Shown here one piece after another: positions 11,245-33,965 of a DNA stretch of 64,000 nucleotides. The notes beneath the pieces were generated by a model. The model was given only the letters and a program-made list of their open reading frames with translations. It was not told where the DNA came from and did not search any database. Source of the stretch: Diphasiastrum complanatum (lineage: Eukaryota; Streptophyta; Lycopodiopsida; Lycopodiales; Lycopodiaceae); the NCBI GenBank assembly GCA_029204225.1, contig CM055100.1, positions 50,566,606-50,630,605 on the forward strand, given 5' to 3'. The number at the start of each line of letters is the position of its first letter. Position 1 is the stretch's first letter. Both the position numbers and the translations under genes were made by a program.

Positions 11245-12342
11245 TGCTACACGCCTTACAACATGAAGAAATTTGTTCATCTTGGTGACAATAGTACTCA
11301 CACTATTGAAGGTGAAGGTACTGTAAGATTGTAATTCCAACATGATCAGTTCAAACTACTATCAAAGGTTTTATATGTTCCTAAACTCTCTACAAATCTG
11401 TTATCAGTAAGTAAAATTACATATTTACGTCATAAGGTAGAATTCAAATCTGATCAATGCAAAATTATTGATAGGAGTAATAAGATCCTTGCACTCAACA
11501 AGAGACATGGATACTTATATAGATTGGCGCATTGTTATTCTGATTCTAGTCAAGCCTTGAAAACCTTTGTTCTTGTCAATAAAGCATTACTATGGCATCA
11601 TCGCTTAGGACACTTGAATTATGCATCTGTTTTGAACATGTCCAGACAATCCATGGCTTTTGATCTCGACTATCCTTCTGGTAAGGTCGATCTCCCTGTC
11701 CGTCATACTGCAATCTTTGGAAAGCAGACTAGGATTCCTTTTAGATCGAGTCATAGGCATGCAACAAAAGGTCTGTTAGATGTTGTTCATACAGATATAT
11801 GTGGACCTATGCAATCTCCTTCATTGTTAGATGCAAAATATTTCATTACTTTTATTGACGAATTCTCCAAAAGAACAGCTATTTACTTCATTAAACAGAA
11901 ATCAGAGGCTTTCATCAAGTTCAGACAATTCAAAGAGCATGCAAAAAATCAGACTGGTAAATGAATCAAAGCACTAAGGTCAGATAAGACGAGAGAATAT
12001 ATCTCCACCAAATTCAAGGAGTACTACCTTAACAACAGCATTGAGCAACAATACATTACCTCCTATTCGCCTCAGTCAAATGGTCTTGCTGAGAGAAAGA
12101 ACAGAACCTTAGTCAAATCAGCAAAGTGCATGTTATCACATGCAACACTTCCGAAGTCCTTCTGGGTTGGAGTTGTTTCACAAGCAACCTATATTCAGAA
12201 CAGATGTCCTACTAAAGGTCTCTCAGAAAAAACACCATTCGAAATTTGGACAGGTACCAAACCTTCTTTATCAAACTTACGAGTTTTTGGATGGATTGCT
12301 TATGCGTAGATTCCTCACGATCTCAAGAAGAAGCTCATGATT
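11245..12342 (+). pseudogene. Ty1/copia protease-end to integrase fragment
   Basis: Conceptual translation in broken frames gives, in order, the end of the protease region (HLGDNSTHTIEG), the GAG-pre-integrase zone (LLSVSKI, then LWHHRLGHLNYASVLNMSR) and the integrase core. In the core the acidic residues can be placed in VHTDICGP, the degenerate RSDKTREY and NGLAERKNRT. The paired cysteines expected before FGKQTR are missing. Stops interrupt the frame at about 11332, 11962 and 12308. The fragment ends at KKKL and is fused directly to the tail of a WBP2-like gene. No LTR, gag, RT or RNase H belongs to it. It is a dead fragment of a copia polyprotein. Confidence 0.85.
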
Positions 12343-12402
12343 GGGTCTCAACTTCGAAGACGGAACTACAGTGGTTCTGTTAGCGAGGAAGCCCAACTAT
12401 GA
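12343..12402 (+). pseudogene. WBP2/GRAM-like gene, 3'-terminal fragment
   Basis: The 19 codons read GSQLRRRNYSGSVSEEAQL followed by TGA, the same C-terminus as the longer copy ending at 22683. The upstream part of the gene is missing; the fragment is joined to copia integrase sequence. It marks the left edge of the tandem array. Confidence 0.8.
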
Positions 12403-12554
12403 TGTATGCATCTTAGCCCGAGTATCACAGAGTATGTCACAATAGCATGTAGATTTACACGGTTTGACTTGTTGGCACGGTTTGAGATATTGCTAGCCCA
12501 TATGTGTCCCACATGTGTCTACATTAATCCAAGCACCTCCACTTGGAAACGTAT

Positions 12555-12690
12555 CTCAGGCAGACAAGTTTATATTCAAATTCAGAGAGACAAGTTTAAA
12601 CGTATCTCAGGCAGACAAGTTTATATTCGAATCTAGGTAGACAAGTCTATATTCGAATCTAGGCAGACAACTTCGTATTCGAAGCTAGAC
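12555..12690 (+). repeat. 25-base tandem repeat within LTR, unit 1
   Basis: About four to five imperfect copies of AGGCAGACAAGTTTATATTC plus GAATC. The same minisatellite occurs in all four units with different copy numbers. Confidence 0.75.
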
Positions 12691-13438
12691 TTTACCAGCT
12701 AGCGCATTTCCACGCATACTAAGCTGATGATCTTCAAGGCTTTTTTAGTGCCCCTTCAGACACGAGCTATTGAATATTCGAATGCAGTTGTGTGTCCATC
12801 CTCTCTATCGAACCTATCTTTATCGACGCTTATTAACAACTATCAGAAGCTTACAGATTCGGATGTTAGACAAACAAACATTCGACCATCAGACAAATAT
12901 TTAATCTATCAAAGAAATGTTCGAGTAAACCATTCAACATTCACACTGATGTACGTGGCAGGTGACTGGCCACGTGTAACTTTTTTATGGTCTGGACACA
13001 AGCCATAACGTACGTCAAGTATCTATCATTGAAGTTTGAAGCCTGTTTTAAAGCTATTGAAAGACAGTCGGCAGCCAGGCGGACCTCGAACATCATATTT
13101 GAATTATTGAAGGCTATGTTTACACATTTGAAGACACCTTTCAATAACTCATTTCTCTCAATATTTTAGACGCAGAAGATGGGGACTTCATGTATTTCAC
13201 GCATTATTTGAAGGGCTCTTTTCAACATGTTTTCTCCAAAAGGGTTGCGTATTGTTTCAATTCCGTTCTCTGCTACGTATTAATAGTTTACTGATGACAA
13301 AGCAAGCTGCTTATTTCCAGATTGCAGAGGTAGCGTTTCATACCGGACTCTTTCTACGTGGCAGCAAACCATTGAATACCTCACCAAACATGATGTTTCA
13401 AATCTTACCGGCGTTCTGCCTACTTCTTCAAACACACA

Positions 13439-13446
13439 TATATATA
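13439..13446 (+). promoter_or_regulatory. Putative LTR TATA box, unit 1
   Basis: TATATATA followed by GCAGAGCCC; the same context recurs at 19411, 23707 and 25520. Spacing to the downstream AATAAA fits an LTR promoter. Confidence 0.5.
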
Positions 13447-14289
13447 GCAGAGCCCTAGCTCATTCTAATTAATTCATTCATTGTTTTGCATGGTAGAAAA
13501 CAGGAGTAGAACGCTTGTTGTTTTCTCTTGTCTGAGCTATTATGGCATAATAAAATACTGTCTGCTGTCTTAATTTAACTTGGATCAATGTAGTGATTCG
13601 CCAACTATGTATATGTAGACTGTATCTTCATAGGATTTTGAAGGAGTGGGTGACAGACACTTTCGGTTTCTCAAGAACGTTATACTGCATTTCAGTTTCT
13701 TGTAGAATGAATCACACCCCTGTTGTTATTGTTTATTCTAACTGATCCTAGGAAATTCATGGTGATTCTGCAGAATAATGGATTCTATGCTATGCATGGA
13801 TCTATATTTAGAACAAAACCCAATATTTAATCGAACTATGTTGTGTTTGGAACTGCTTTATCAAAATAAGTGAGTAGCAAGTTTATGAAGGTTGTTGAGG
13901 GTCAACATAGCCCATTGTAAGCATTGCCTGCAGCAATCGTTTGGCCTTGTGGCATTCTTGTTTTGGCAAAGTTCAGATCTAAACAGTGAAGCATGTGATC
14001 TTAATATTGTGGGGATGTCTAATCATTCCGAGTTCGTACTCTTCTCTTGAATCTGGATTTCTTGGTTGAACTGTCTAAATACCATTTTCAATGGCGGTAT
14101 TGGACGCCTATCCAGAAATGTCGTCAGACAACCAGCTTTACATTTCCATTTCGTTGGACTTCAAATATAAATTTTTTTTATCTCCAATAATGACATAATA
14201 CGTCTTTATGATGCTCTCCGTGGGAATGATAATCATTTATACTACACTTTGACTGACATTTTGGTTCGGTAAGCCATAAACCAGACTTT

Positions 14290-14307
14290 TGGCGTCGTTG
14301 TCGGGGA
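14290..14307 (+). promoter_or_regulatory. Primer binding site, tRNA-Asp type, unit 1
   Basis: TGGCGTCGTTGTCGGGGA is close to the TGGCGCCGTTGCCGGGGA primer site used by many plant Ty3/gypsy elements. It sits 6 bases after the end of the LTR-like repeat. Confidence 0.55.
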
Positions 14308-15682
14308 GCACAGCCAACCAGAGAGTTATTTGTCACTACAATGTTTGTTGGTTATTTTCTAGGAGGAAATGCTATGAAGTTTTGATGCTATGATGCTGCT
14401 ATTTTAAATTGGCTTTTATCCAGCAACCATGCTATTCAGCCTGAGGCGGGAGAAGATTTTCATATATATTTTTATATCTTCTATTTACTCAATATAGTTC
14501 AAAAGTACTTTTGTTGTAGCAGAATGTCTACGTACTGAAGTTTATCCTACACCTACTCAGAAGTTGTGCATAACTCATTCTTCATGTCTTGATATGAAAT
14601 TTGGTTATGTGAAATTGAGGGAGCGTTATGACCAGTCTACTATCTATGCCCAGTCTATGAAATTTCATATTGAAGGACGGATTTCTTCTGACAATTTATG
14701 TGGACTTGGCAAATCTGTCCACTTGATTCCTATTTGCTCTATGCTATTTGTGGAAGATTCCTTTGATTATAAAGAACTGGCTCATTTCAGCAGATGTTGT
14801 GATCCAAATATTTTCATATTTTCAGAAGAAATTATGGCCAAGTTATTTTTTAGCCAAATTGCCCTCCATATTTTGTCGGCTGCTACAATAGTGAAGTTGT
14901 GGCATTTCAGATACTTTCGTCCACCTTGAGAAAAGAGGGTAAAAAAAAAATTATTTATTTTAAAAAAATTTATTTTCTATTTATTATAGTTTTTAATATT
15001 AATTTTTATCTGTTTTTAATTTTCATCTGAAGATCTATCGTTATGTAAATAAGATTCTGGTTTTAAGTAAGCAAATACTATATCTATGCTTTTTCAGAAT
15101 CTGTTCTTTTCTATATTCTTTGTTTTGTTTTATTTTATTTTATTTATAGATCCTCGGTGTTTATTTATTTATTGGTTTCAAATGGTACTGAGATATTGTT
15201 TCAAGACTGTACTATGGTGCTGATCCAGTTAATGACGATATATTTGTTGGTGACCATTTTTATTACTGAAGGCCTTTATATATTTTTGGAGGCACTTTTT
15301 TGGCTTATCGACACTCTGTGCCGAGTTCGTTCGTAAGTTCAAGTGATACTTTCTTTGGGCATTCTAAACAGCGAGCTATTATTCTAAGTTCCAATGTTGT
15401 GCTGACTACATGGGTGGAGGCCATTTAATTGGGGAAAAGACCTAAAGCTTTTTGTTTAAGTTGCAAAAGATATATTTATGGGCACTCTTCTAAGTTATGT
15501 ACGCTACCTTATTCTAAGGTCCCTAATTGACCTAGCTTCAAGTTGGACATGAAGATTTAATGCCAAGGCCGGCACCGAGCATTATAAAATCGGATCATAC
15601 CTTCCTCTTCTTCGAGTCTTCAACGACCAGCATGTTTCTCTCTCATCAAATAGGATTCAAGCCTGCTCTCTCACTCTCTTTC
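14308..15682 (+). mobile_element. Internal region of unit 1
   Basis: About 1.4 kb matching 20270-21917 of unit 2. It carries a broken copy (best at 14564-14929, 121 codons) of the unidentified frame described at 20348-20971. Compared with unit 2 it lacks about 375 bases (21228-21596 in unit 2). Its end contains the TATA box and leader that precede the WBP2-like start codon. Confidence 0.55.
15583..15589 (+). promoter_or_regulatory. TATA box upstream of WBP2-like fragment, unit 1
   Basis: TATAAAATCGG lies 132 bases before the ATG at 15715; in unit 2 the spacing is 130. A CT-rich then GA-rich leader follows in both. Probably the captured gene's own promoter or leader. Confidence 0.4.
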
Positions 15683-15689
15683 TTATGTG

Positions 15690-15714
15690 GAGAGAGAGAG
15701 AGAGAGAGAGAGAG
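15690..15714 (+). repeat. (GA)n microsatellite
   Basis: About 12 GA repeats directly before the WBP2-like ATG; a longer homologous tract is at 22002-22030. Confidence 0.9.
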
Positions 15715-15817
15715 ATGGCGGTGAGTCCTCAGTTGTTTTCGAATGGGTTGCCTGTGCCCTTTGGAGACGAGCTTTTTGTGCTCACCTGCGAAGGTGTGGA
15801 GTGTCAAGCGGACAAGA
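15715..15817 (+). pseudogene. WBP2/GRAM-like gene, 5' fragment
   Basis: Thirty-four codons from ATG read MAVSPQLFSNGLPVPFGDEL and on to CEGVECQADK, matching the N-terminus of the copy at 22048. The reading frame is cut one base later, at 15818, by the start of a copia LTR (TGTTAGATTTC). The rest of the gene is absent here. Confidence 0.8.
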
Positions 15818-16258
15818 TGTTAGATTTCTTATGCTGAGCATCCTGAAAACCGAAGGCCGACTACATGTTTTGGACCTTCACATTTTTCCCCTTTGAGATT
15901 TTTTGTGCCTTAAACGCTTTTAAGGCACCTTTGCCTTTTTCGCAATTTTTCCTACCTTCGCCTTTTTCCCTGCCTTCGCTCTAGAGGCACCTTCGAGATT
16001 TACATACCTTTAGTCTAAGGGCACCTTTGGGTTTTTCGGGTTTTTCCAACAGTGGCAAATGGACGTCGCCAACTTATCATCAACCCTAAAAACAGCTGGA
16101 CTTTGTACATATACAAAGACTGGCATAAATAACATTCAAGGCTTATAAGATATTTGTCTCTTGACACTTGTAAATATATATACTAGCTGAATCAAGCTAT
16201 GTAAGTGTTCTTTTTAATCAGAGTTATCTGTAGCCAACGTTATCACGCTCAACAAGCT
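15818..16258 (+). mobile_element. Copia 5' LTR, truncated
   Basis: Matches the left part of the LTR at 42095-43006, including CTTCG- and AAGGCAC-rich text. It breaks off after CGCTCAACAAGCTG and jumps straight into gag, so the LTR end, PBS and gag start codon are deleted. Confidence 0.75.
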
Positions 16259-17110
16259 GGCTCATCTCTCATTGACAAACTCGATGGAGATAATTACCAT
16301 CTCTGAAAATTCAAAATGAAGGTTATACTTCTAGCCAAAGGACTGTGGGACATCGTTGATGGTACGGAGCTCAAACCAAAAGGTGATACAGCCATCATTA
16401 CCAAGTGGAGACTGAGAGATGGCATTTGCCATGATCACCCTCAACATCAAGGATACTCAGATCAACCACATACGTGCTGCTCAGACTGCTAAGGATGCAT
16501 AGGACATCCTAGCAACTCTCTATGACATCAGGGACGTCACTTCCAAGCTTCATTTGAGGAAGAAATTCTCCACCCTCAGAATGTCTGATGTAGATAGTGT
16601 TTCGAGTCATCTCAACACCTTCAAAAATTTTATGGAGCAGATGACTGCAACTGGCTCAGTCATAGAAGATTTCGATGCCTGAAGCTACGAAAATTGGGTA
16701 ATGGCAATTTCTACCCAGGAGCACCTCACTCTATCAAGAGTAATTTCGCTGCTCCTACAAGAGGAGATCAGAAGATTAAGATCCTCCTCAGGCTCAGAAT
16801 CGGGTCCTCAAGCTCTATATTCAAAAAATCAGAAGCTTAGATCCAAGAGTTCTACAAAGTCAGACTATATTGACAAGAAGAGCAACACGCAGTCTGGACC
16901 AAATTTTGGTTCAGATCAAATTCAAGCTCTTCATCATTCCAACCAGTGCAGAAACTTTTCTACAAATACTGTAAGAGGACTGACCTTGAAATCAAGGACT
17001 GCCGAACTTTGAAATACAACAACGAAAAGAAGAAGCAGTTCCAACAACAAGCACATAGTGCTACAACCAGTCACTCAAATCAGCAACAAGAAGAAGATGA
17101 AGCAGTTTTC
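16259..17110 (+). pseudogene. Copia gag relic
   Basis: Frames of the UBN2/gag type appear in pieces: IDKLDGDNYH, KMKVILLAKGLWDIVDGTEL, then WVMAISTQEHLTLSRVISLL followed by LQEEIRR and an Ser/Lys-rich linker. Stop codons and frameshifts interrupt it (for example at about 16304, 16501 and 16681). The zinc knuckle region is degenerate (KYCKRTDLEIKDC: the glycine-His of the knuckle is lost). Confidence 0.75.
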
Positions 17111-17129
17111 ATGACCAAAGTCGGTAAAC

Positions 17130-17330
17130 AACAGGATATCGATTCCTGGTATCTAGATTCTGGAGCAACTCAACACATGACTCACCATCGTGACTGGTTC
17201 AAAGACTATAAGTCATTCACCCACTCTCGAGTTGTGCAACTTGGAGACAACTCATCACATTCAATCGAAGGTAAAGGAACAGTTAAAGTTGAATTCAAAA
17301 GAGGTGAAGTCAAGCTGATGTCCAATGTTC
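17130..17330 (+). pseudogene. Copia protease relic
   Basis: WYLDSGATQHMTHH carries the aspartic protease D-S-G motif, followed by HLGDN-type text (VVQLGDNSSHSIEGKGTVKV). It stops at MSNV, where an internal deletion joins it to the far end of integrase. Confidence 0.8.
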
Positions 17331-18385
17331 ATCGGCTATTTCCTAGCTCACAAGGCATACAAGCTCTACAATCTGGATACTGAGAAGGCATTCACCAGTA
17401 GAAATGTCATTTTTGTGGAAGACCAGTTCATCGACCACAAAAGAAAAGATGTTGATAAATCTGACCCAAGGATCGAGCAACCAGACAATTCCGATCCAGG
17501 ATTTCAACTGCAGAATAATGACATTGGCTTAGACAATGAGTCAGAACCTCAACGAGTCAATCCACATCAGAAAACTGAAGTTCAACCCAAAAGGTCGAAC
17601 AGGTCCAGACAGCCTCCATCCAGATTTATGGATGATCCGTTCTGCTACTTTGTGCAAGAACCAACCACCGTTTATGAGGCTATGTCTACTCCTGATGCTG
17701 ACTAGAGTGGAAAGCAACAATGGACACCAAATTCGATTCTCTGGTGGAGAATCAAACATGGACAGTCACTGATCTGCCAAAGGATCAAAACCCAATTTCA
17801 TGCAAATGGATATTCAAAGTGAAGTACGATGTTGAAGGAAGGCTAAATTGTTACAAGGCTAGGCTAGTCGCCAAAGGTTTTTCCCAGATTCCAGATCTGG
17901 ATTATTCAAAGCCTTTAGTCCAATCATCAAACATGCTTCGATCAACCTACTCCTCTCCTTTGCAGCCGCAACAGATCTTGAAGTCCACCAAATGGATGTC
18001 CAGACCGCTTTCCTCAATGGAACCATCAAAGAAGAAATCTATATGACGCAGCTAGAGGAATACGAACTCAACGGCAAGCAACAACACCTTGTATGCAAAA
18101 TCCACAAGGTGCTCTATGGGCTGAAACAGTCACCCAAAGCATGGTTTCAAAAGATCAATGCATTTCTGATAGAGAATGGTTTTATTCCAAACTCGACAGA
18201 CTCGAATGTCTACTTCAAGTCTGTATCAGATTGCTTCATCATCATCACTCTCTATGTAGATGATACACTCTTATTCAGTAACAATCTGAATCTGATGAAG
18301 GATACAAAATGCATGCTGGCCCAGGAATACAAGATGACTGACATGGGTCCAGCCCACTATTGTCTTGGAATCCAAATCCAATGAG
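17331..18385 (+). pseudogene. Copia integrase C-end and reverse transcriptase relic
   Basis: After the deletion joint the frame resumes with FIGYFLAHKAYKLYNLDTEK (end of integrase), an acidic linker, then RT: CKWIFKVKYD, KARLVAKGFSQ, a frameshift, DVQTAFLNGTIKEEIYM, LYGLKQSPKAWFQKI and the catalytic LYVDDTLLFSNN box. YVDD is intact but the frame is broken near 17955-17995. The copy ends before RNase H. Confidence 0.85.
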
Positions 18386-18436
18386 ATCAATCCAACAGAT
18401 TGATTTTTATCAGTCAGCAACGATATCTCAACAACG

Positions 18437-20245
18437 TGTCTTAGCTTGAGTATCAAAGAGCATGTTACAATAGCATGTAGATTTACATGGTTTGAGTTGT
18501 TGGCACAATTTGAGATATTGTTGGCCTATATGTGCCACATGTGTCTACATTAATCCAAGCACCTCCACTTGGAAACGTATCCCAGGCAGACAAGTTTATA
18601 TTCGAATCCAGGCAGACAAGTTTATAGTCGAATCTAGGCAGACAACTTCGTATTCGAAGCCAAACTTTACCAGCCAGCGCATTTCCACGCATACTGAACA
18701 GACGATCTTCAAGGCTTCTTTAGCGCCCCTTCAGACACGAGCTATTGAATAGTCGAATGCAGTTGTGTGTCCATCCTCTCTATTGAACCTATCTTTATCG
18801 ATGCTTATTACCAATTATCAGAAACTTACAGATTCGGATGTTAGACAAACAAACATTCGACCATCAGACAAATATTTAATCTACCGAAAAAATGTTCGAG
18901 TTGACCATTTAACATTCACACTGATGTACGTGGCAGGTGACTGGCCACGTGTAACTTTTTTATGGTCTGGACACATGCCATAACGTACCTCAAGTATCTA
19001 TCATTGAAGTTTGAAGCGTGTTTTAAAGCTATTGAAAGGCATTTGTTGGCAGCCAGACTCCGAACTTCATATTTGAAGTATGGAAGGCTATGTTTACACA
19101 TCTGAAGACACCTTTCAATAATTCATTTCTCTCAATATTTTAGAGACAGAAGATAGGGACTTCATATATTTCAAGCATTATTTGAAGGGCTCTTTTCAAC
19201 AAGTTTTCTCTCGAAGGGCTGCGTATTGTTTCATTTTTGTTCACTGCTACATATTAACAGTTTACTGATGACAGAGCAGCGTGCTTATCTCCATATGGCA
19301 GAGGTAGCATTTCGTACTGGACTCTTTCTATGTGGTAGCAAACCATTGGATACCTCACCAAACATGATGTTTCAGATCTTACCGGCGTTCTGTGTGCTTT
19401 CCCAAACACATATATATAGCAGGGCCCTCGCTCATTCTAATTAATTGATTCATTGTTCTGCATGGTAGAAAGCAGGAGTAGAATGTTTGCTGTTTTCTCT
19501 TGTCTGAGCTATAAAATACTGTCTTAATTCGGCTTGAATCAATGGAGTGATTCGCCAACTATGTATATGTAGACTGTATCTTCACAGAAATCTGAAGGAG
19601 TGGGTGATAGACACTTTTGGTTTCTCAAGAACATTATACTGCATTTCAATTTCTTGTAGAACAAATCACACCCCTGTTGTTATTGTTATTCTGATTGATC
19701 CTAGGAAATTCATGGTGATTCTATAGAATAATGGATTCTATGCTATGCATGGATTTATAATTAGAACAAAACCCAGTAATTAATCGAACTATGTTGTGTT
19801 TGGAACTGCTTTATTAGAATAAGTGAGTAGCAAGTTTATGAAGGCTATTGAGGGTCAACATAGCCCATTGTAAGCATTGCCTGCAGCAATCGTTTGGCCT
19901 TGTGGCATTCTTATTTTGGCTAAGTTCAGATCTAAACAGTGAAGCATGTGATCTTAATATTGTGGGGATGTCTAATCATTCCGAGTTCTTACTCTTCTCT
20001 AGAATCTAGATTTCTTGGCTGAACTGTCTGAATATCTTTCTTGGTGTTTGTTTGTACCATTTTCAATGGCGGTATTGGCCGCCTACCCAGAAATGTCATT
20101 TCCATTTTGCTGGACTTCAAAGATAATGTTTTTTATCTCACCAATAATGACAGAATACCTCTTTATGATGCTCTCCGTGGGAACGATAATAATTTATACT
20201 ACACTTTTACTGACGTTTTGGTTCGGTAAGCCATGACATAAACCA
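18437..20245 (+). mobile_element. LTR-like repeat, array unit 2
   Basis: Second copy of the 12403-14283 repeat. Its first bases are replaced by copia sequence (joint at TCTTAGC). TATA box at 19411-19418. Ends ATAAACCA six bases before the primer site at 20252. Confidence 0.6.
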
Positions 20246-20251
20246 AACTTT

Positions 20252-20269
20252 TGGCGTCGTTGCCGAGGA
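20252..20269 (+). promoter_or_regulatory. Primer binding site, tRNA-Asp type, unit 2
   Basis: TGGCGTCGTTGCCGAGGA, two mismatches to the usual TGGCGCCGTTGCCGGGGA site of plant Ty3/gypsy elements, at the end of the LTR-like repeat. Confidence 0.55.
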
Positions 20270-20347
20270 GCATAGCCAACCAGAGAGTTATTAGTCACTA
20301 CCAATGTTTGTTGGTCATTTTCTAGGAGGAAATGTTATGAAGTTTTC

Positions 20348-20971
20348 ATGCTATGCAGAAGCTATGATGCTATTATTTTAAATTGGCTTTTATCCAGCAA
20401 CCATGCTATTCAGCCTGAGGTGGGGGAAGATTTTCAAATACATTTTATATCTTCTATTTACTCAGTATATTTCAAAAGTACTTTTGTTGTAGCAAAATGT
20501 CTACGTTCTGAAGTTTATCCTACACCTACTCAGAAGCTATGCATAACTCATCCTTCATGTCTTGATATGAAATTTGGTTATGTGAAATTGAAGGGCTATG
20601 ACCAGTCTACTATCTATGCCCAGTCTATGAAATTTCATATTGAAGGACGGATTTCTTCTGACAATTTATGTGGACTTGGCAAATCTGTCCACTTGATTCC
20701 TATTTGCTCTATGTTATTTGTGGAAGATTCCTTTTATTATGAAGAACTGGCTCATTTTAGTAGAAGTTGTGATCCAAATATTTTTATATTTTCAGAAGAA
20801 ATTATGGCCGTTATTTTTCAACCCAATTGCCCTCCATATTTTGTCAGTTGCTGCACTATTGAAGTTGTGGCATTTCAGATACTTTCGTCCGCCTTGAGAA
20901 AAGGGGATACATTTTTTTTTTATTTGTTTTCTATATTTGTTTTAGAATTTTTTATTTTCTATTTATTATAG
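20348..20971 (+). CDS. Unidentified 207-codon frame inside the LTR-type unit
   Basis: The frame starts MLCRSYDAIILNWLLSSNHA and runs through VYPTPTQKLC, SCLDMKFGYVKL, FHIEGRISSDNLCGLGKSVH and HFSRSCDPNIFIFSEEIM before an AT-rich tail that ends in a hydrophobic Phe-rich stretch. I do not recognise the family. The first part stays open in unit 3 (24321-24510) and the second part in unit 1 (14564-14929), with mostly conservative differences. That suggests it was once coding, but the short divergence makes this weak. Position directly after the LTR and primer site is where a gag frame would lie, yet no gag, zinc knuckle or protease motif is present. It may be part of another captured gene or chance. 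Confidence 0.3.
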   Translation: MLCRSYDAIILNWLLSSNHAIQPEVGEDFQIHFISSIYSVYFKSTFVVAKCLRSEVYPTPTQKLCITHPSCLDMKFGYVKLKGYDQSTIYAQSMKFHIEGRISSDNLCGLGKSVHLIPICSMLFVEDSFYYEELAHFSRSCDPNIFIFSEEIMAVIFQPNCPPYFVSCCTIEVVAFQILSSALRKGDTFFFYLFSIFVLEFFIFYLL

Positions 20972-21917
20972 TTTTTAATGTTAATTTTTACTTTATTTTT
21001 TAATTTTTATCTGAGGATCTATTGTTATGTAAATAAGGTTCTGGTTTTAAGTAAGCAAATACTATATCTATGATTTTCCAGAATCTGTTCTTTTCTATAT
21101 TCTTTGTTTTGTTTTATTTATAGACCCTCAATGTTTATTTATTTATTGGTTTCAAATGGTACTGAGATACTGTTTCAAGATTGTACTATGGTGCCGATCC
21201 AGTTTATGACAATATATTTGTTGGTGTTGTCCATTCCAAGGAATTTGCCTATATATATTTCTGATGCTGACTATCGAATGGTCTGACTAAGGCTATGGGG
21301 TTGCCAATTGTCACTTGGAAGTTTGAAACTTAGTTCCTGTTGACAATGTTTGCGAGGTCGCTGCACAATTCAAGGGGAGGTTATGTGGTACCCTGTTTAT
21401 GATATTTTCTATTTTTTCGACATTTTTATATAAAAGTTGGAAATGTGGTCAGCTAATGCAGTGCCTAGTTGAGTTTTCACTTATTTTTGATATTATGTAC
21501 CATGGTACTGTGTCGAGTTGCTGGTTTACGTTGGCAAGGCTTAATTAAGGTCGAGTTCTAAGGTCAAGGCATTGCATATATGGCATTGCCTATGAGCATT
21601 TTTATTACTAAAGGCCTTTATATATTTTTGGAGGCACTTTTTTAGCTTATCGACACTCTGTGCCAAGTTCGTTCCTAAGTTCAAGTGATACTTCTTTTGG
21701 GCATTCTAAGACAGCGAGCTATTATTCTAAGTTCCAATGTTGTGCTGAGTACATGGGTGGAGGCGATTTAATTGGGGAAAAGGCCTAAAGCTTTTTGTCT
21801 AGGTTGCAAAAGATATACTTATGGGCACTCTTCTAAGTTATGTAGGGCTGCCTTATTTTAAGGTCCCTAATTGACCTAGCTTCAAGTTGGACGCGAAGAT
21901 TTAATGCCAACGAGCAA
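20972..21917 (+). mobile_element. Internal region of unit 2, non-coding
   Basis: AT-rich sequence without a recognisable frame. It includes a purine run AAGGGGAGG near 21372-21380 and a 375-base block (21228-21596) that unit 1 lacks. Confidence 0.45.
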
Positions 21918-21924
21918 TATAAAA
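21918..21924 (+). promoter_or_regulatory. TATA box upstream of WBP2-like gene, unit 2
   Basis: TATAAAATCGGACC, 130 bases before the ATG at 22048, conserved with unit 1. A CT-rich stretch and a (GA)n leader lie between. Confidence 0.4.
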
Positions 21925-21997
21925 TCGGACCATACCTCCTTCTTCGAGTCTCTCTCTCATTGAATATGATTCGAGCCTACTCTCTCGCTCTCTTTCT

Positions 21998-22001
<4 letters not shown>

Positions 22002-22030
<29 letters not shown>
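22002..22030 (+). repeat. (GA)n microsatellite in WBP2-like leader
   Basis: About 14 GA repeats just before the start codon, homologous to 15690-15714. Confidence 0.9.
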
Positions 22031-22031
<1 letters not shown>

Positions 22032-22047
22032 TGTGGCGGAGAGAGAG

Positions 22048-22683
22048 ATGGCGATGAATCCTCAGTTGTTTCCGAATGGGTTGCCCGTGCCCTTCAGAGG
22101 CGAGCTTCTTGTGCTCACCCGCGAAGGTGTGGAGTGTCAAGCGGACAAGGTCCCCGATATTTCAGGGGGAAGTTTTTCAGCAAAAGAAAAGATATATCTT
22201 TCAAATTTTTGCTCGATCTTTGTTGCTGACAAGCCGCATTCTGTTGCTTACAAGCTGATCGGGAACCTCTTTGTTGTTGATAAGCCATTGCTATTTATAC
22301 ATGAGGAGCGCTTCAATCAACCAATATTTTTATGCAATAATGTTTCAGGCAAGGTACATCTTGTGATCCCAGATGGGTCTAACAGGTCTTTGTTTGGTCC
22401 CCATAACTTCAAAATTCTGTTCAAGGAAGGTGGTGTTGGAACTTTTGTTCCATTGTTCTTCAAACTGTTGCGATCTTTGCGTGAAAGTGACTTGTCATGC
22501 TCCACAATATCTATATTGGAACCTTTTCCAACTGCTCAACCACCACTTGACGAGATGATTAGACATGCGTAAATTGATCCAAATGATCTTACTAAACTGT
22601 ATTTACAGCAGCCTGATGTGACTGGGTCTCAGCTTCGAAGACGGAACTACAGTGGTTCTGTTAGCGAGGAAGCCCAACTCTGA
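22048..22683 (+). pseudogene. WBP2/GRAM-domain-like gene, intronless full-length copy
   Basis: The protein family is the plant counterpart of WW-domain-binding protein 2, a GRAM-type membrane-associated protein of about 200 residues with unclear plant function. The start MAMNPQLFPNGLPVPF, the centre EERFNQPIFLCNNVSGKVHL with FKILFKEGGVGTFVPLFF, and the tail DPND, YLQQPDVTGSQLRRRNYSGS are all in place and co-linear. Length is 211 codons plus stop. A TAA at 22570-22572 replaces the Tyr expected after DEMIRHA; a downstream frame continues without shift to the natural TGA at 22681. The copy contains an apparent insertion of about 15 residues around ADKPHSVAYKLIGNLFVVDK. The plant gene normally has introns, so this single-exon copy points to an RNA intermediate. 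The start was set at 22048 by the family N-terminus, not at an upstream GTG. Confidence 0.85.
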
Positions 22684-24221
22684 TGTATGCATCTTAACTC
22701 GAGTATCAAAGAGTATGTCACAATAGCATGTAGATTTGCACGGTTTGAGTTGTTGGAACGATTTTAGATATTGCTAGCCCATATGTTTCCCACATGTGTC
22801 TACATTAATCCAAGCACCTCCACTTGGAAACGTATCCCAAGCAAACAAGTTCATATTCGAATCCAAGCAGACAACTTTATATTCGAATCTAGGCAGACAA
22901 CTTCATATTCGAAGGCAGACTTTACCAGCCAGCACATTTCCACGCATACTGAGCAGACGATATTCAAGGCTTATTCAGTGCCTTTTCAAGACTTTACCAG
23001 CCAGCACATTTCCACGCATTCTGAGCAGACGATCTTCAAGGCTTCTTCAGTGCCCTTTCAGACACGAGCTATTCAATATTCGAATGTAGTTGTGTGTCCA
23101 TCGTAGCCTATCTTTATCGACGCTTATTAGCAACTATCAGAAACTGACAGATTCGGATGTTATACAAACAAACATTCGACCATCAGACAAATATTTAATC
23201 TACCGAAGAAATGTTCCAGTTGACCATTCAACATTCACACTGATGTACATGGCAGGTTGACTGGCCACGTGTAAGACACAGGCCATAAGGTACCTAAAGT
23301 ATCTATCATTGAAGTTTAAAGCCTGTTTTAAAGCTATTGAAAGGCAGTTGGCATCCAGGCAGACTCCTAACTTCTTATTTGAATTATTGAATGGTACATT
23401 TACACATGTGAAGACACCTTTCAATAACTCATTTCTCTCCACATTTTAGAGGTAGAAGATCGAGACTTCATATATCTCACGCATTATTTGAAGGGCTCTT
23501 TTCAACATGTTTTCTCCAGAAGGCTGCGTATTGTTTCATTTCAGATCTCTGCTACTTATTAACATTGTACTGATGACAAAGCAGCCTGCTTATTTCCAGA
23601 TGGCAGAGGTAGAGTCTCGTACCGGACTCTTTCTACGTGGCAGCAAACCATTGGATACCTCACCAAACATGACGTTTCAGGTGTTCTGCCTACTTCCCCA
23701 AACACATATATATAGCAAAGCCCCCGCTCATTTTAATTGATTCATTCATTGTTCACACCCCTGTTGTTATTGTTATTCTGACTGATCCTAGGACATTCAT
23801 GGTGATTTGCAGAATAATGGATTCTATGCTATGCATGGATTTATAATTAGAACAAAACCCAGTAATTAATTGAACTATGCTGTGTTTGGACCTGCTTTAT
23901 TAGAATAAGTGAGTAGAAAGTTTATGAAGGCTGTTGAGGGTCAACATAGCCCATTATAAGCATTGCATGTAGCAATCGTTTGGCCTTGTGGCATTCTTGT
24001 TTTGGCTAAGTTCAGATCTAAATGGTGAAGCATGTGATCTTAATACTGTGGGGATGTCTAATCATTTTGAGTTCTTACTCTTCTCTGGAATCTGGATTTC
24101 TTGGTTGAACTGTCTGAATATCTTTCTTGGTGTTTGTTTGTACCATTTTCAATGGCGGTACTGGCCGCCTTATACTACACTTTTACTGACATTTTGGTTT
24201 GGTAAGCCATGACATAAACCA
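22684..24221 (+). mobile_element. LTR-like repeat, array unit 3
   Basis: Third copy, 1.5 kb, beginning TGTATGCATC right after the WBP2-like stop codon. Shorter than units 1 and 2 through internal deletions (for example around 23755 and 24166). TATA box at 23707-23714. It contains a private 72-base tandem duplication. Confidence 0.6.
22918..23061 (+). repeat. 72-base tandem duplication in unit 3 LTR
   Basis: GACTTTACCAGCCAGCACAT through GTGCC(C/T)TTTCA occurs twice head to tail, with only a few differences. Units 1, 2 and 4 have it once. Confidence 0.8.
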
Positions 24222-24227
24222 AACTTT

Positions 24228-24245
24228 TAGCGTCTTTTCGGGGGA
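24228..24245 (+). promoter_or_regulatory. Degenerate primer binding site, unit 3
   Basis: TAGCGTCTTTTCGGGGGA at the position of the tRNA-Asp-type site of units 1 and 2, with several substitutions. Confidence 0.4.
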
Positions 24246-24533
24246 GCACAGCCAACCAGAGAGTTATCTATCACTACCAATGTTTGTTGGTTATTTTATA
24301 GGAGAAAATGCTATGAAGTTTTGATGCTATGCAGAAGCTATGATGCTGTTATTTTAAATTGGCTTTTATATAGCAACCATGCTATTCAAGCCGAGACTGG
24401 AGAAGATTTTCAAATACTTTTTATATCTTCTATTTACTCAATATATTTTAGAAGTAATTTTGTTGTAGCAGAATGTCTACGTTCTGAAGTTTATCCTACA
24501 CCTACTCAGAAGCTATGCGAAGCCCAACTCTGA
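24246..24533 (+). mobile_element. Truncated internal region of unit 3 fused to WBP2 tail
   Basis: The internal region runs to CAGAAGCTATGC (24518) and joins directly to GAAGCCCAACTCTGA, the last five codons of the WBP2-like gene. About 2 kb present in unit 2 (rest of the internal region and nearly all of the gene) is missing. Confidence 0.7.
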
Positions 24534-26199
24534 TGTATGCGTCTTAGCTCGAGTGTCAAAGAGTATGTCATAATAGCATGTAGATTTACATGGTTTGAGT
24601 TGTTGGCACGGTTTGAGATATTGCTAGCCCATATGTGTCCCACATGTGTCTACATTAATCCAAGCACCTTCACTTGGAAACATATTCCAGGTAGACAAGT
24701 TTATATTCGAATCCAGGCAGACAAGTTTATATTCGAATCCGAGCAGACAAGTTTATATTCAAATTCAGACAAACAATTTTATATTCGAATCTAGGTAGAC
24801 AAGTTTATATTCAAATCCAGGCAGACAAGTTTATATTTGAATCTAGGTAGACAACTTCGTATTCGATGCCAAACTTTACCAGCCAGCGCATTTCCTCGCA
24901 TACTCATAAGACGATCTTCAAGGCTTCTTCAATGCCCCTTCAGACACGAGCTATTGAATATTCAAAAGCAGTTGCGTGTTCATCCTCTCTATCGAACCTA
25001 TCTTTATCGACACTTATTACCAACTATCAGCAACTTACAGATTCAGATGTCAGTCAAACAAACATTCAACCATCAAACAAATATTTAATGTACCAAAGAA
25101 ATGTTCGAGTTGACCATTCAACATTGACACTCATGTTTGTGACAGGTGACTGGCCATGTGTAACTTTTTTATGGTCTGTACAAGGTTGGACACAGGCCAT
25201 AACGTACCTCAGTTATCTATCATTGAAGTTTGAAGCCTGCTTTAAAGCTATTGAAAGGCACTTGGCAGCCAGCAACTTCATATTTGAAGTATTGAAGGCT
25301 ATGTTTACACATCTGAAGACAAGTTTCAATAACTCTTTTCTCTCAACACTTTAGAGGCAGAAGATGGGGACTTCATATATTTCAAGCATCTGCTTATTTC
25401 CAGATGGCAGAGGTAGCGTTTCATACCGAACTCTTTCTACGTGGCAGCAAACCATTGGATACCCCACCAAACATGATGTTTCAGATCTTACCAGCGTTCA
25501 GCCTGCTTTCCCAAACACATATATATATAGTAGAGCCCCCGTTCATTCTAATTAATTCATTCATTGTTATGCATGGTAGAAAGCATGATTAGAACGCTTG
25601 TTGTTTTCTCTTTTGTCTGAGCTATTATGGCAGAATAAAATACTATCTACTGTCTTAATTCTACTTGAATCAATGCAGTGATTCGCCAACTATGTATATG
25701 TAGACTATATCTTCACAGGAATCTGAAGGAGTGGGTGACAGACACTTTCAGTTTCTCAAGAACGTTATATTGCATTTCAGTTTCTTGTAGAATGAACCAC
25801 ACCCCTGTTGTTATTGTTTATTCTGACTGATCCTAGGAAATTCATGGTGATTCTGCAGAATAATGGATTCTATGCTATGCATGGATTTATAATTAGAACA
25901 AAACCCAGTAATCAATCGAACTATGCTATGTTTGGAACTGCATTATCAGAATTAGTGAGTAGCAAGTTTATGAAGGCTATTGAGGGTCAACATAGCCCAT
26001 TGTAAGCATTGCCTACAACAATCGTTTGACCTTGTGGCATTCTTGTTTTGGCAAAGTTCAGATCTAAACGGTGAAGCATGTGATCTTAATACCGATACTG
26101 GCCACCTACCCAAAAATGTCATCAGACAACCAGTTTTACATTTCCATTTCGTTGGACTTCAAAGATAATTTTTTTTATCTCACCAATAATGACAGAATA
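24534..26199 (+). mobile_element. LTR-like repeat, array unit 4 (left part)
   Basis: Fourth copy of the LTR-like repeat, interrupted at GACAGAATA by the composite element at 26200-33960. TATA box at 25520-25529, AATAAA at 25634-25639. It carries the longest version of the 25-base minisatellite (24688-24868, about seven copies). Confidence 0.6.
24688..24868 (+). repeat. 25-base tandem repeat, expanded in unit 4
   Basis: About seven imperfect copies of AGGCAGACAAGTTTATATTC plus GAATC, against three in units 2 (18580-18660) and 3 (22830-22915). Confidence 0.8.
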
Positions 26200-27264
26200 T
26201 GTTGTAAAGTTACCTTTACAAGCTTTACTTCCGGCGCCACCAGCGCCAGCATTGTCCCCAACTGCTCCCGGCGCCACCGGCGCTGGCGCCGCTCCCGGTG
26301 CCACTGTGACTAGAATCCAGCCGACGCCAAGTTCCTATGGCTAAAAATCTTTGATCGGTTCTAGCGAAGTCCATAGAGCTCAGATCGATGTGCAATCACC
26401 TCACACCCACCAATACTATAGGGGAGTGCGGGTTGCGACTCAGGGCGCGCTCCAACCAAGTCTCAGCCTCCCTTACTGGAATGTTGTCCTGGCACTTGCC
26501 TTGGCATGCCAGCGCGCCCCGAAGACTAGGGTCGGTCACACACTTGAAATGTAACATTCTCAGATTTATCAATAAAGTGGGATTTTTCTCAAACTGACTC
26601 TGATTACCTTATGGGTTTCAGTGTTCGGTAAAAGCGCTAGTTGTAAGTTCGCTTCAAACTTCTTAATTTGGCATATAGCTGAAGGTCGTATCCCGGGACG
26701 CCAGCGATATGCCGTCGGGACCACTCGGTCCGTGGCGCCAGAGGTATTGGTCCAGGAACTGGTTGTCTCCATATCTGTCGCGGCTTGTGCTTCTGAGTAT
26801 TCCTTGCATGAACGTGAATGGGTTAAGCTCTTGGGGAACGGGCTCTAACCTGTCGGCTGAGATGGATGGCTTGCTTGGGTGGAAGTTACATGTTTATCGC
26901 TATCTAGTCTGGCGTGGAGCCAAGTTGGCTTCCAGCGCTCGTGACAAAGCTTTCAATTGGTTAAGTCTGATGTAAGTGAGACCACTTGCTTGGAATGGAT
27001 GTTACTCATTTGTAACAAAGCTTCGAGTTGGTTAAGTTTGATGTATGTCGGGCGGCTGGCTCGGAGGGAAGTCGCCCACATCGGGACCCCCGATTTGGCA
27101 TGGCGCCAGGTTGGATCTCAATGTTGGTTTCGGAACTTCAAGTTGGTGGAGTCTGATCATTGGCGAGTTGGCTGCGTGTATGTCAAGTGGATTTGGATGG
27201 CGAGAGTTGAAGGTTGGGAAGCTAAGTCGTGGTTCCCGGCTCCCTTTGGAATGCCTGCACTACA
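26200..27264 (+). mobile_element. Left LTR of the composite (plus)
   Basis: TG...CA termini, 1065 bases. Relative to the minus-strand LTR copy it lacks about 130 bases at CCTCACAC/CCACCAATAC (26408). Polyadenylation signal AATAAA at 26571-26576. The first 140 bases are GC-rich with repeated GGCGCC and CCGGCG words. Confidence 0.8.
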
Positions 27265-27266
27265 TG

Positions 27267-27279
27267 TGGTATCAGAGCC
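27267..27279 (+). promoter_or_regulatory. Primer binding site, initiator-Met tRNA type
   Basis: TGGTATCAGAGCC two bases after the LTR end. Confidence 0.85.
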
Positions 27280-29306
27280 GATTGGCCGGTCAACTATGCC
27301 AATCTCACGGAAATGGCCACTTTTTGGGGTTCATCAAGACAATTGTTGTGCAAGGTGCTGCCCACAGTGTAAGCACGGGTGCGTCCACGTTCGGGGTGGT
27401 CGGCAGAATGGGAGACTTGATGAGTCAAAGTGCTATCCTCAAGGTGTGAGCACGGTCAGTTCCTGCGGTTCGGGCCTGGCGCTGTCTGCACGTAGGATAG
27501 ATGAGGCAAAGTGCTGCCTAGGTAGGTGAAAGCACAATCTGTGCCTTGTGGGGTGCGGGGTGACATATTCAAACTGTACGGGTTAACCATTGATACAGAG
27601 ATGTTGTTCGAATTCGGGTGTAAAGGACGGGTGGTTAGCTGTCGGTGCGGGATAACTACCGATCGTTTAGCTATAAGGGCTATCGACCAGATTTGGTGGG
27701 GCGTGATTGAGACAATGTGCTGCTTAATGGTGAAAGCACAGATAGTTGGAGGGGTATTCTCTGTGGGCTGATTCTATGATCGATCTATAAGGGCGCGGCC
27801 AGGCAAAGGTCCTTTGGCAGGACTATCTCAAAGGGGGACCTTGTCTTTGTTACGTGTTAGTAAACATGCCTGAGTGTCTTGCTTGTATGTATTCGTGGTG
27901 AGTCTTAGTACTCGTGCTTTGCCTGGTTTGCATGATTGCTTGTGATACAAGGAGCTGATGGCTCGAGAAAGAACCTTTCTTTTGAAGGCTGACACCATCA
28001 AACAAAGAGGACTACAGAATCTGTGGGGTGGATTTGCAGTTCAAGTACTCGCACATGAATGGCCACGAAATGACTCGATGTTTGCAAAGGATGGATGGCT
28101 AGCCTGTTTCTTGGGTTAGTTTCATTTGCGACGATGCCCACCAGACGCAAGCAAGAAGTCAAAAGTTGTAAAGGGAAATTTCAAGGGAGATCTTCTATGT
28201 AGCAGTTGGTCTTCATCTGGGACGGCCACCTTCGGAACTGAAACTCACTGAGCATGGGTGATATCCAGTATCAGTTGGGTTTTTCCTCAAAAGGGAAAGA
28301 CTAGGATCTTCTTCAGAGATAGGCAACAAGTTGGATTAAGCCATAATCCTAGCAGATGGGAAGCAAAGTGTTGGAAAGGCTTTTTGTCTGAGAACTCTAC
28401 ACTAAGGCCGGTCAACTGTTTTTATCAGTGCGGGGGAACTATCACACACCTCTCTCTTGGGGCAAATTTTGAATGAAAGTTGATTAAAATGGGGGCAAAT
28501 TCAAGGTGACCTAGCCATACTCACATGAGGAGACTGGCGAACTTTGGACCTAATAAGTTGACAAGCTTTTGTTGTGGAAAGGAAAGCTTGTTATAGGCTT
28601 TCTCTGGACCAACAATGATGAGGAGACATAATGAGTACGCTGACTTGTGTTATGTGTAAAGCTGCTGATCAATGAAGGAACTGTGAAAGTTGAGTCTTGC
28701 ACGAGAGACTTGGCACTTTGAATGGACGCTGAGGGACAGTTCGTATTGAAATCGGACTAGTGCATACTCTGGGTGCATGTGTCTGATTCAAAGAGAACTA
28801 CTTGAAGCCAAGCTAGATGTACACTTCTTGTTTTGACTGTGAGGCATCTCACCAGTGATGGAATTGTGAAAGTCAAGTTTTGCACGACAGACATGGTGCT
28901 TCAAACGAACGCGAAGAGATAGTTCGTATGCGGATCAAATTGGTGCGACTCTTTGGCTCTCCACGAGGTCAATGGTTACATTTGGGTTGATTCAAAGACA
29001 ACTACCTCAAGCTAAGTGAGAGGTGCATTGCGGAGTACTCAATCTTTGCCTACCTTAAAGAGCCAAAAAGGAAAAGTATCAAGATCAAGCTGGGACAAGG
29101 AGAGAAATCCAGGTGCGAAAGCAACAAGGCAAGGAGTGGACCATAAAGTGGGCAATCAAACAATAAATCCTTTGGCTCAGGGAGCCTGGATACCTGTGTG
29201 GAACTGATCAAATCAAGAGCTCAAGAAGCTCAACACAAAGTGCATCAAGGACAAATCAGGAGCTCAAAGGAGTTCCAAAGTCAAAAGTCAGAAGTGACAG
29301 GGGCAG
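27280..29306 (+). mobile_element. Body of left arm, non-coding
   Basis: Two kilobases without gag or pol similarity, ending at the purine-rich ACAGGGGCAG, a possible polypurine tract. The same sequence is present inverted at 30115-31963. A 63-codon frame (29016-29207) recurs inverted at 30222-30413 almost unchanged, but its length and lack of motif do not support a gene. Confidence 0.7.
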
Positions 29307-29828
29307 AAGGTAATCAGAGTCAGTTTGAGAAAAATCCCACTTTATTGATAAATCGGAGAAAGTTACATTTCAAGTGTGTGACCGACCCTAGTCTCCGGGG
29401 CGCTGGCATGCCAAGGCGACTAACAGGACAACATTTCAGCAAGGGAGGCTGAGACTTGGTTGGAGCTCGCCCTGAGTCGCAACCCGCACTCCCCTATAGT
29501 ATTGGTGGGATTCGCCACCTCCCCTCATACCAAATACTCTACCCGGGCTGGTAAAGCACGTTTTCTCTCTCTAGGATTTTCTCTCTCTAGAATTTATTGA
29601 TCCCCAAGCTTCCTTTAATCATGCCTAGATTGTGTGAGGTGATTGCACATCGATTTGAGCTCTCTGGACTTCGCTAGAACCAATCAAAGATTTTCAGCCA
29701 TAGGAACTTGGCGCCGGCTGGATTCTGGTCACAGTGGTGCCGGGAGCAGCAGGGGCGCCGTTGATGCCGAGGACAATAATGGCGCCGGTGGTGCCAGAAG
29801 TAAGGCTTGTAAAGGTAACTTTACAACA
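29307..29828 (-). mobile_element. Inverted LTR 5' fragment
   Basis: Reverse complement begins TGTTGTAAAGTTACCTTTAC and covers the first 522 bases of the LTR, up to GATTACCTT. It stands where a plus-strand 3' LTR would be expected. It contains the 130-base part that the left LTR has lost. Confidence 0.8.
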
Positions 29829-30114
29829 TCCACCCCATCTTTATAAAATCGGATGTCCTCAACAGATGTCAGATTAAAGTAAAGGTGCCTCCCAATTAAA
29901 ATTAACTATACATTTGATCTACTTGGCACAGTACTCAATTTACTGGCCACTTTTTATTAACATTGAAGCTGGCACACCACAAGTCAGAGACTCAGCTCTT
30001 TGTACTGAAAAATTACATAACTTGAAAATATCACTTTGTTTGAAAAAAACGTAGATTTTATGTCGCTTACGTAAAACCCAAGAACCTTATTAACTAGTGA
30101 CAGAGGCCGTTCTG
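29829..30114. other. Spacer between inverted arms
   Basis: 285 AT-rich bases found only once in the window. No gene seen. Confidence 0.6.
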
Positions 30115-31963
30115 TGAAATGTTCGCCCCTGTCGCTTCTGACTTTTGACTTTGGAACTCCTTTGAGCTCCTGATTTGTCCTTGATGCACTTTGTGTTGAG
30201 CTTCTTGAGCTCTTGATTTGATCAGTTCCACACAGGTATCCAGGCTCCCTGAGCCAAAGGATTTATTGTTTGATTGCCCAATTTATGGTCCACTCCTTGC
30301 CTTGTTGCTTTCGCACCTGGATTTCTCTCCTTGTCCCAGCCTGATCTTGATACTTTTCCTTTTTGGCTCTTTAAGGTAGGCAAAGATTGAGTACTCCGCA
30401 ATGCACCTCTCACTTAGCTTGAGGTAGTTGTCTTTGAATCAACCCAAATGTAACCATTGACCTCGTGGAGAGCCAAAGAGTCGCACCAATTTGATCCGCA
30501 TACGAACTACCTCTTCGCGTTCGTTTGAAGCACCATGTCTGTCGTGCAAAACTTGACTTTCACAATTCCATCACTGGTCAGTTGCCTCATAGTCAAAACA
30601 AGAAGTGTACATCTAGCTTGGCTTCAAGTAGCTCTCTTTGAATCAGACAAATGCACCCAGAGTTTGTACTAGTCCGATCTCAACATGAACTGTCCCTTAG
30701 CGTCCGTTCAAAGTACCAAGTCTCTCGTGCAAGGCTCAACTTTCACAGTTCCTTCGTTGATCAGCTGCTTTACACATAACACCTTCAGCGTACTCATTAT
30801 GTCTCCTCATCATTGCTGGTCCAGAGAAAGCCTATGACAAGCTTTTCTTTCCACAACAAAAACTTGTCAACTTATTAGGTTCAAAGTTCGCCAGTCTCCT
30901 CGTGTGGGTATCACTAGGTTGCCTTGATTTTGCCCCCATTTTGATCAACTTTCATTCAACATTTGCACCAAGCGAGGGGTGTGTGTGATAGTTCCCTTCC
31001 ACATATAAAAATCAACTGACTGGACTTAGAGTAGAGTTCTCAGACAAAAAGCCTTTCCAACACTTTGCTTTCCATCTGCTAGAATTATGGCTTGATCTAA
31101 CTTGTTGCCAATCTCTGAAGAGGATCCTAGTTTTTCCCCTTTGAGGAAAAACCCAACTGATTCTGGATATCACCCATGCTCAGTGAGTTTCAGTTCCGAA
31201 GGTGGCCATCCCAAATGAAGACCAACTGCTCCATAGAAAATCTCCCCTGAAATTTGCCCTTTCCAACTTTTACTCATTTCGTTGCCGTTCACGTGCGAGT
31301 ACTTGAACTGCAAATCCGCCCCACAGATTCTGTAGTCCTCTTTGTTTGATGGTATCAGCCTTCAAAAGAAAGGTTCCTTCTCGAGCCATCAGCTCCTTGT
31401 ATCACAAGCAATCATGCAAACCAGGCAAAGCACGAGTACTAAGACTCACCATGAATACATACAAGCAAGACACTCAGGCAGGTTTACTAACAGGTAACAA
31501 AGACAAGGTCCCCCTTTGAGATAGTCCTGCCAAAGGACCTTTGTCTGGCCGCGCCCATACAAATCGATCACAGAATCAGCCCACAGAGAACACCCATTCA
31601 ACTATCCATGCTTTCACCATTAAGCAGCACATTGCCTCAGTTACGTCCCACCAAATCTGGTCGGTAGCCCTTATAGCTAAACGATCGGGAGCTATCCCGC
31701 ACCGGTAGCTAACCACCCGTGCTTTACACCCGAATTCGAGCAACATCTCTGTATCAATGGTTAACCCGTACAGTTCGAATATGTCACCCTACACTCCACA
31801 AGGTACAGACCGTGCTTTCACCTACCTAGCCCCCGTTCTGACGACCACCCTGACCGTGGACGCACCCGTGCTTACACTGTGGGCAGCACCTTGCACAAAG
31901 TTATCTTGATGAACCCCAAACAATGGCCATTTCCGTGAGATCTGCATAGCTGACCGGCCAGTC
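30115..31963 (-). mobile_element. Body of right arm, inverted copy
   Basis: Reverse complement of 27280-29300, ending at the same CCCCTGTC point. Non-coding. Confidence 0.75.
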
Positions 31964-31976: not shown

Positions 31977-31978
31977 CA

Positions 31979-33960: not shown

Positions 33961-33965
33961 AAATA

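Follow-up and report, generated by a model that had tools for sequence, protein, structure and literature searches.

How did an intronless copy of a host gene come to lie in a tandem array of long repeats? The question is posed by a window of 64,000 nucleotides from the lycopod Diphasiastrum complanatum (GenBank assembly GCA_029204225.1, contig CM055100.1, positions 50,566,606 to 50,630,605), part of contig C9 of the 1.74 Gb genome that was searched. An earlier note, made from the window alone, reported four tandem copies of a long repeat and an intronless gene that, following that note, we take to be WBP2-like. Both are there: the copies are about 80-95% identical piecewise, and the gene stands at 22048-22683. 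The four repeats, at 12340-34046, are damaged long terminal repeats (LTRs) of a small non-autonomous LTR retrotransposon, arrayed in tandem. The gene lies within the boundaries of the LTR, its four introns are gone, its untranslated regions (UTRs) are partly present, and a second site, flanked by a target duplication, holds another LTR that carries it. Comparison of these sequences makes it probable that a spliced WBP2-like/GRAM mRNA was gained in the U3 (unique 3') region of a non-autonomous LTR family by reverse-transcriptase template switching. The earlier observation is partly confirmed, being real though differently arranged from its first reading, and the interpretation is partly supported overall: an LTR element does carry a spliced host WBP2-like transcript, in an array of the form LTR-internal-LTR-internal.

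The third repeat, LTR-C, holds the fullest copy, with the following features:

21384..24214, plus strand: LTR-C, the sole array LTR in the window retaining all WBP2 exons
21887..21998, plus strand: leader, of unproven origin, that follows the 5' segment of the LTR and precedes the (GA)n in the WBP2 5'UTR
22048..22683, plus strand: coding sequence of the WBP2-like gene in five directly joined exons (no introns), with an in-frame early stop at 22570-22572
22684..22847, plus strand: WBP2 3'UTR in LTR-C up to the 3' junction, where CAAGCAAACA (22838-22847) is a changed CAGGCAGACA

The LTR starts at 21384 (TGTGG.., after the purine tract at 21372-21380), 664 bases ahead of the WBP2 start codon, and the gene therefore lies inside it, in U3 and upstream of the TATA box. 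In a search with window positions 21300-21700 (40 of 82 candidates scored), 17 of the 41 matches listed begin exactly at query base 85, which is 21384; they represent about ten distinct sites, since five rows are one insertion on contig C15 and three pairs of rows (C20/C596, C11/C1577 and C14/C909) each look like one site seen on two contigs. Dispersed LTR starts read TGTGGTACCCTG, and full elements have a purine tract and TTA ahead of the LTR start. The (GA)n of the WBP2 5'UTR was considered as a purine tract followed by an LTR start and was ruled out, as dispersed copies start at 21384. At the other end, a solo LTR on C7 that lacks WBP2 runs from TGTGG to GACA within an exact 5-base duplication, ATAAT, so that the LTR 3' end is best read as ..GACA; the array LTRs end at 20238 and 24214, each 13 bases before a tRNA-Asp-type primer site.

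Read from the window alone, the gene appears to close the internal region and to abut directly on an LTR that restarts after the stop codon, which was the earlier note's view. Capture in the internal domain is nevertheless very improbable: dispersed copies start their LTR at 21384, the supposed restart is the parental WBP2 3'UTR, and a solo LTR on C15 that contains WBP2 refutes it. The restart in the third unit is plain continuity from gene to UTR, and those in the first and fourth units are truncations (at about 12340 and, through a deletion, at 24519).

The source of the gene can be identified. A single intron-bearing WBP2-like gene is seen twice, on C10 and C4 (99.94% identical over two 3.1-3.2-kb stretches), and, with 30 of 30 candidates scored, no further intron-bearing match was listed. 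The exons of this gene are:

C10:26394701-810, 26400653-764, 26403760-831, 26404023-228 and 26405116-226: parent exons, encoding 203 residues with no inner stop

The four parental introns, all GT-AG, are precisely absent from the LTR-C copy and, by eye, from the C15 copy. Beyond the element's WBP2 stop the parental 3'UTR continues for about 165 bases before LTR sequence is met, and part of both WBP2 UTRs is present in the element. Kimura two-parameter (K2P) distances are 0.070 between LTR-C and the parent (539 sites), 0.063 between C15 and the parent (453) and 0.087 between LTR-C and C15 (477). The LTR-C gene has a 21-base insertion relative to the parent in addition to its early stop, the C15 copy lacks the stretch of query 359-435, and all copies examined are broken; a working protein is unlikely to be made from them. 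The captured open reading frame (ORF) has no Pfam match, while the parent protein matches Pfam GRAM below the cut-off (E 0.18) and a GRAM domain protein in PDB, 8ujw (E 2e-4). Parent and copy end differently, because the parent (L027, near 1592) lacks about 17 bases around the stop that are kept in all four element copies with this region (LTR-A, LTR-C, LTR-D and C15; LTR-B, where the region is absent, was left out), and the captured copies may record an older version of the end of the host gene.

A plain segmental duplication of the WBP2 locus, the alternative that the earlier note had itself named, would suit the tandem arrangement and the parallel copies of the array on C29 and C461. Practically nothing is left of its probability, as the parent has introns, which refutes it, and different flanks; the LTR family is dispersed, and a WBP2-bearing LTR has a target duplication.

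Separately from the element, a fragment of WBP2 that includes some of the leader and runs from exon 1 into exon 4 occurs on C15 (L030, C15:120000-129999, 4201-4779, minus strand; also on C2027); it has three stops and no match to the element LTR on either side.

How the mRNA entered U3 is best judged at the 3' junction, where the parental 3'UTR and the LTR share the 10-base word CAGGCAGACA, without poly(A). The corresponding sequences are ACGTATCACAGGCAGACAATAATGG in the parent, ACGTATCACAGGCAGACAAAATTC in C15 and CTCACCAGGCAGACAGAATTC in L032a, which lacks WBP2. The word is present exactly in six of nine WBP2-less U3 zones, and AGGCAGACA in eight of the nine; it has since changed in LTR-C and LTR-D. 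As a background, 10-mers of these nine zones occur at 17 of 8037 positions of the parent locus (0.2%), a figure slightly too high since it counts the parent's own junction word. None of the four array LTRs has a run of more than three A within the 60 bases that follow the junction. A shared word without poly(A) fits template switching and speaks against a LINE-type (long interspersed nuclear element) insertion, by which a processed WBP2 copy would have landed in a family LTR that later spread by ordinary retrotransposition. The copy is intronless with part of its 5' and 3'UTR, and the LTR did reach a second site, as this alternative would have it; it appears unlikely, given the missing poly(A), a junction made of a word common to both sources, a U3 that looks replaced rather than interrupted, and no duplication seen by eye around the cDNA (the 5' junction not being fixed).

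The same microhomology would suit repair at the DNA level, in which a microhomology-mediated or synthesis-dependent process inserted a cDNA or retrocopy of WBP2 into an LTR. Other repair-like fusions exist in the array (for example at 12340 and 15816/18438), as does the C15 fragment without LTR sequence. This explanation requires a separate cDNA source, whereas template switching accounts for the sense orientation and the replaced U3 segment without an additional step, and we regard repair as quite unlikely.

LTRs of the family that lack the gene suggest what may have been replaced. L032a (with a gap), L032b, L040, L042, L048 and L051 match LTR-C up to position 503; L032b, L040, L042 and L051 then resume at 26-base repeats (about 1454-1537 of LTR-C), after an interval of about 75-210 bases; L032a is matched again only from 1660, and L048 has no match to LTR-C beyond 503. 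The variable U3 zone reaches 0.7-1.7 kb in five members (L033, L053, L054, L065 and L066, the last with its left end cut), and these long zones look TTCGA-rich and not gene-like by eye. The other LTRs of the family contain no WBP2. The long mid-U3 segment of C7 was searched in the genome as a possible captured gene and gave 20 matches; three C21 stretches among them were fetched, of which two continue as LTR, and by eye these showed no signs of a gene.

The second site, C15:415k, is a WBP2-bearing solo LTR, with no second LTR within the 10 kb fetched, and ACAAG stands on both its sides. A search with its upstream flank (40 of 574 candidates scored) gave five rows that are the C15 insertion itself and 35 others of the flanking repeat; five of the latter were fetched as empty sites, and all five are uninterrupted, with a single target word that is either intact (ACAAG in C3 and C2) or altered (AGAAG in C13 and C17, ATGAG in C18). 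C4246, C4899, C5058 and C648 share the C15 left flank and hence represent the same single insertion. In a tree of the 5' part of U3 (first 290 bases, 15 rows), LTR-C and C15 group together at 92/85, not starred.

Several observations weigh against this account. At its 3' junction C15 has four A (GACAAAATTC), and no more. The 5' junction is not fixed to the base: similarity to the parent begins at (GA)n, and the leader before it (21887-21998) has 15 of 15 matches in places that carry WBP2 and none at the parent, the exception being one 25-base match to a WBP2-less LTR on C4 (E 4e-4). The ancestral U3 at the capture site is not certain, since seven WBP2-less LTRs (L033, L039, L053, L054, L055, L059 and L065) part from LTR-C already at 185-310. 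No target duplication is present at the C14 LTR (flanks TAAGC and CAAGT), and the C15 LTR ends in GTAACGCC without the usual GACA, so that a 4-base duplication with an end in ..GCCA is equally readable. No autonomous partner of the family was found. In the R-U5 part of the LTR (repeat and unique 5' regions) the two sites also disagree with the U3 tree: in a tree of 13 rows the four array LTRs form a clade at 98/94 with C15 outside, and forcing C15 into it is rejected at p 0.036, a weak rejection because the group was chosen after the distances were seen. C15 lies at K2P 0.084-0.138 from the array versus 0.090-0.116 from WBP2-less LTRs, although LTR-C alone (457 sites) is as near to it as any, at 0.084. 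As C15 is no nearer to the array in this part, either recombination between LTR backgrounds or a second capture is needed; a second capture is less likely, given the shared leader, and transfer of the cargo between backgrounds is possible. By eye, the C15 repeats look like those of C20 and C6, and the array repeats like those of C16.

Under template switching, which we still favour, reverse transcriptase engaged in minus-strand synthesis on the U3 repeat CAGGCAGACA would have jumped to the matching word in the 3'UTR of a WBP2 mRNA packaged alongside, continued along this mRNA as far as the (GA)n close to its 5' end, and returned to U3 with loss of a short U3 piece (about 75-210 bases in the four measurable relatives). 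Since both LTRs receive their U3 from the cDNA, a single event would have placed the gene in each. The gene-bearing element would then have transposed, and unequal recombination between LTRs would have built the array. A more speculative and rather doubtful extension is that the hypervariable middle of U3 is a pocket that catches host mRNAs by template switching at the 26-base CAGGCAGACA repeats, with cargo exchanged there between LTR backgrounds, such that the LTRs rather than the internal domains would carry and swap host genes.

The family that acquired the gene is a dispersed one, with at least 98 matches to window positions 12343-14343 (40 of 259 candidates scored) and at least 48 to the internal domain (40 of 69 scored). 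It has the marks of LTR retrotransposons, a 5-base target duplication at a TG..CA LTR together with a primer site and a purine tract. The signals reported earlier are in place (TATA at 13438-13447, AATAAA at 13549-13554, tRNA-Asp-like primer sites at 14290-14307 and 20252-20269). The primer-site stretch of L032, TGGCGCCGTTGCCGGGGA, contains 14 bases, GCCGTTGCCGGGGA, complementary to the 3' tail of tRNA-Asp; this tail occurs 13 times in the genome, and one fetched copy is tRNA-Asp (GTC) by ARAGORN, with a different discriminator base. The array primer sites are like that of L032 at 16 of 18 bases, counted by eye. The proposed Ty3/gypsy membership was not borne out: in the array and in C20, C2, C5 and C13 alike the internal domain measures about 1.1 kb, no pol was found, and the ORF within it gives no Pfam match even with E values up to 10 allowed, unlike the gag-pol of autonomous Ty3/gypsy (Athila/Tat-like) elements. 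The sole pointer was the tRNA-Asp-type primer site, of a kind associated with Ty3/gypsy elements. This ORF (20348-20971) keeps its reading largely in L060, L039, L032 and L031, with some stops and shifts, and may represent another captured gene or a protein of the element. A copia RT/RNaseH-like ORF (RT, reverse transcriptase) upstream of the truncated internal domain L054, seen by eye, was taken as a nested element and not as a partner.

The rest of the array reads as follows:

12340..14275, plus strand: LTR-A, left end missing, beginning within WBP2 exon 5
12403..12566, plus strand: LTR-A part of the WBP2 3'UTR, up to and including the shared word CAGGCAGACA at 12557-12566 (alignment with the parent L027)
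14276..15250, plus strand: internal domain A, which has lost its right part by deletion, with primer site 14290-14307
15251..15816, plus strand: LTR-B left piece, from LTR position 210 to WBP2 exon 1 (15715-15816), matching 21593-22149
15817..18438, plus strand: rearranged segment with copia-like sequence, replacing most of WBP2 in LTR-B
18439..20238, plus strand: LTR-B right piece with WBP2 3'UTR, repeats, R and U5, ending GCCATGACA
20239..21383, plus strand: internal domain B, complete, with primer site 20252-20269, ORF 20348-20971 and purine tract 21372-21380
24215..24518, plus strand: internal domain C, truncated
24519..26199, plus strand: LTR-D left piece, beginning in WBP2 exon 5 through a deletion
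26200..33960, no strand: TG..CA insert nested in LTR-D and containing inverted copies, flanked by GAATA and AAATA (4 of 5 alike)
33961..34046, plus strand: LTR-D right end, ending ..GCCGCGACA

WBP2 remains are kept in all four array LTRs. The left side of LTR-A (about 12340) is joined to copia integrase-like sequence by eye, and the array's own left end is lost. After the first unit there is not a whole WBP2 gene, as earlier supposed, but exon 1 alone (15715-15816), followed by copia-like sequence (15817-18438), whose gag part resembles 43222-44082 (Pfam copia-type gag) and in which protease and RT were recognised by eye. Nor does the fourth repeat end at 26199; it is split by the nested insert and truly ends at 34046. 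C29 (G000:C29:173370-199172) has two extra units of about 5.97 kb relative to the window, the left part of which matches 16939-18573 and the right part 12598-15851 at 99.7-99.9%; they look like LTR-B/LTR-A hybrids from recent unequal crossing-over. The C9 array may be a shorter haplotype or collapsed relative to C29, so that the difference in length may reflect recent unequal crossover products, haplotypes or assembly. The 7.8-kb insert at 26200-33960 consists of several inverted and direct copies of one sequence and resembles a palindromic or foldback LTR-type element. Elsewhere in the window, direct repeats at 53785-54368 and 58111-58693, 95.5% identical, surround minus-strand ORFs that by eye resemble copia; together they may form a rather young copia element.

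Most descriptions place captured genes between the LTRs, and in Bs1 of maize the capture is reportedly internal; here the gene is within LTR-C and within the C15 solo LTR, not between two LTRs. The sag gene of mouse mammary tumour virus is a protein-coding gene in U3, being an established viral gene, whereas the present one is a broken host copy. In the portions available to us of open-licence PubMed Central papers (including PMC10853983, PMC13317346, PMC3726574, PMC4717578, PMC1950507 and PMC3445842), we found no host protein-coding gene inside an LTR, the nearest case being the 5S ribosomal DNA within the LTRs of Cassandra (PMC10853983). Cassandra is likewise non-autonomous, with host-derived sequence inside the LTR and not at its ends (PMC10853983), and has been reported in tandem arrays (PMC4717578); it differs in its cargo, which comes from a non-coding 5S RNA gene (about 70 bases or more) instead of being a near-whole spliced protein-coding mRNA. 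Rfam at the gathering score gave no match, 5S included, in 12300-34100. Bs1, with host exons within its sequence (PMC13317346), and gene-fragment TRIMs (terminal-repeat retrotransposons in miniature; PMC4717578) are likewise LTR elements with intronless host exons, although the TRIM fragments are partial and lie in internal regions (PMC4717578). Tandemly arrayed TRIMs likewise form LTR-internal-LTR-internal arrays but are smaller, with no protein-coding gene in the LTR described in the part of that source at hand (PMC4717578). The chimaeras BARE-2 and Veju-L are likewise ascribed to abnormal template switching between co-packaged RNAs (PMC13317346, PMC1950507), and in BARE-2 the change also lies in the LTR; their donor, rather than a host mRNA, is a second retrotransposon or unknown DNA.

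How host genes are captured, whether by read-through or by template switching, is seldom easy to tell, since the junctions are blurred. With the parent, gene-less LTRs, gene-bearing LTRs and empty sites all in one genome, the 3' junction can be read here to the base, and the gene-bearing repeat gives a clear view of gene theft by LTR elements. The fate of cargo in U3 differs from that of cargo between the LTRs: a U3 gene reaches both LTRs in one step, persists in solo LTRs, and in the 5' LTR lies upstream of the element's promoter. Searches for captured genes that are limited to the space between LTRs would miss such cases.

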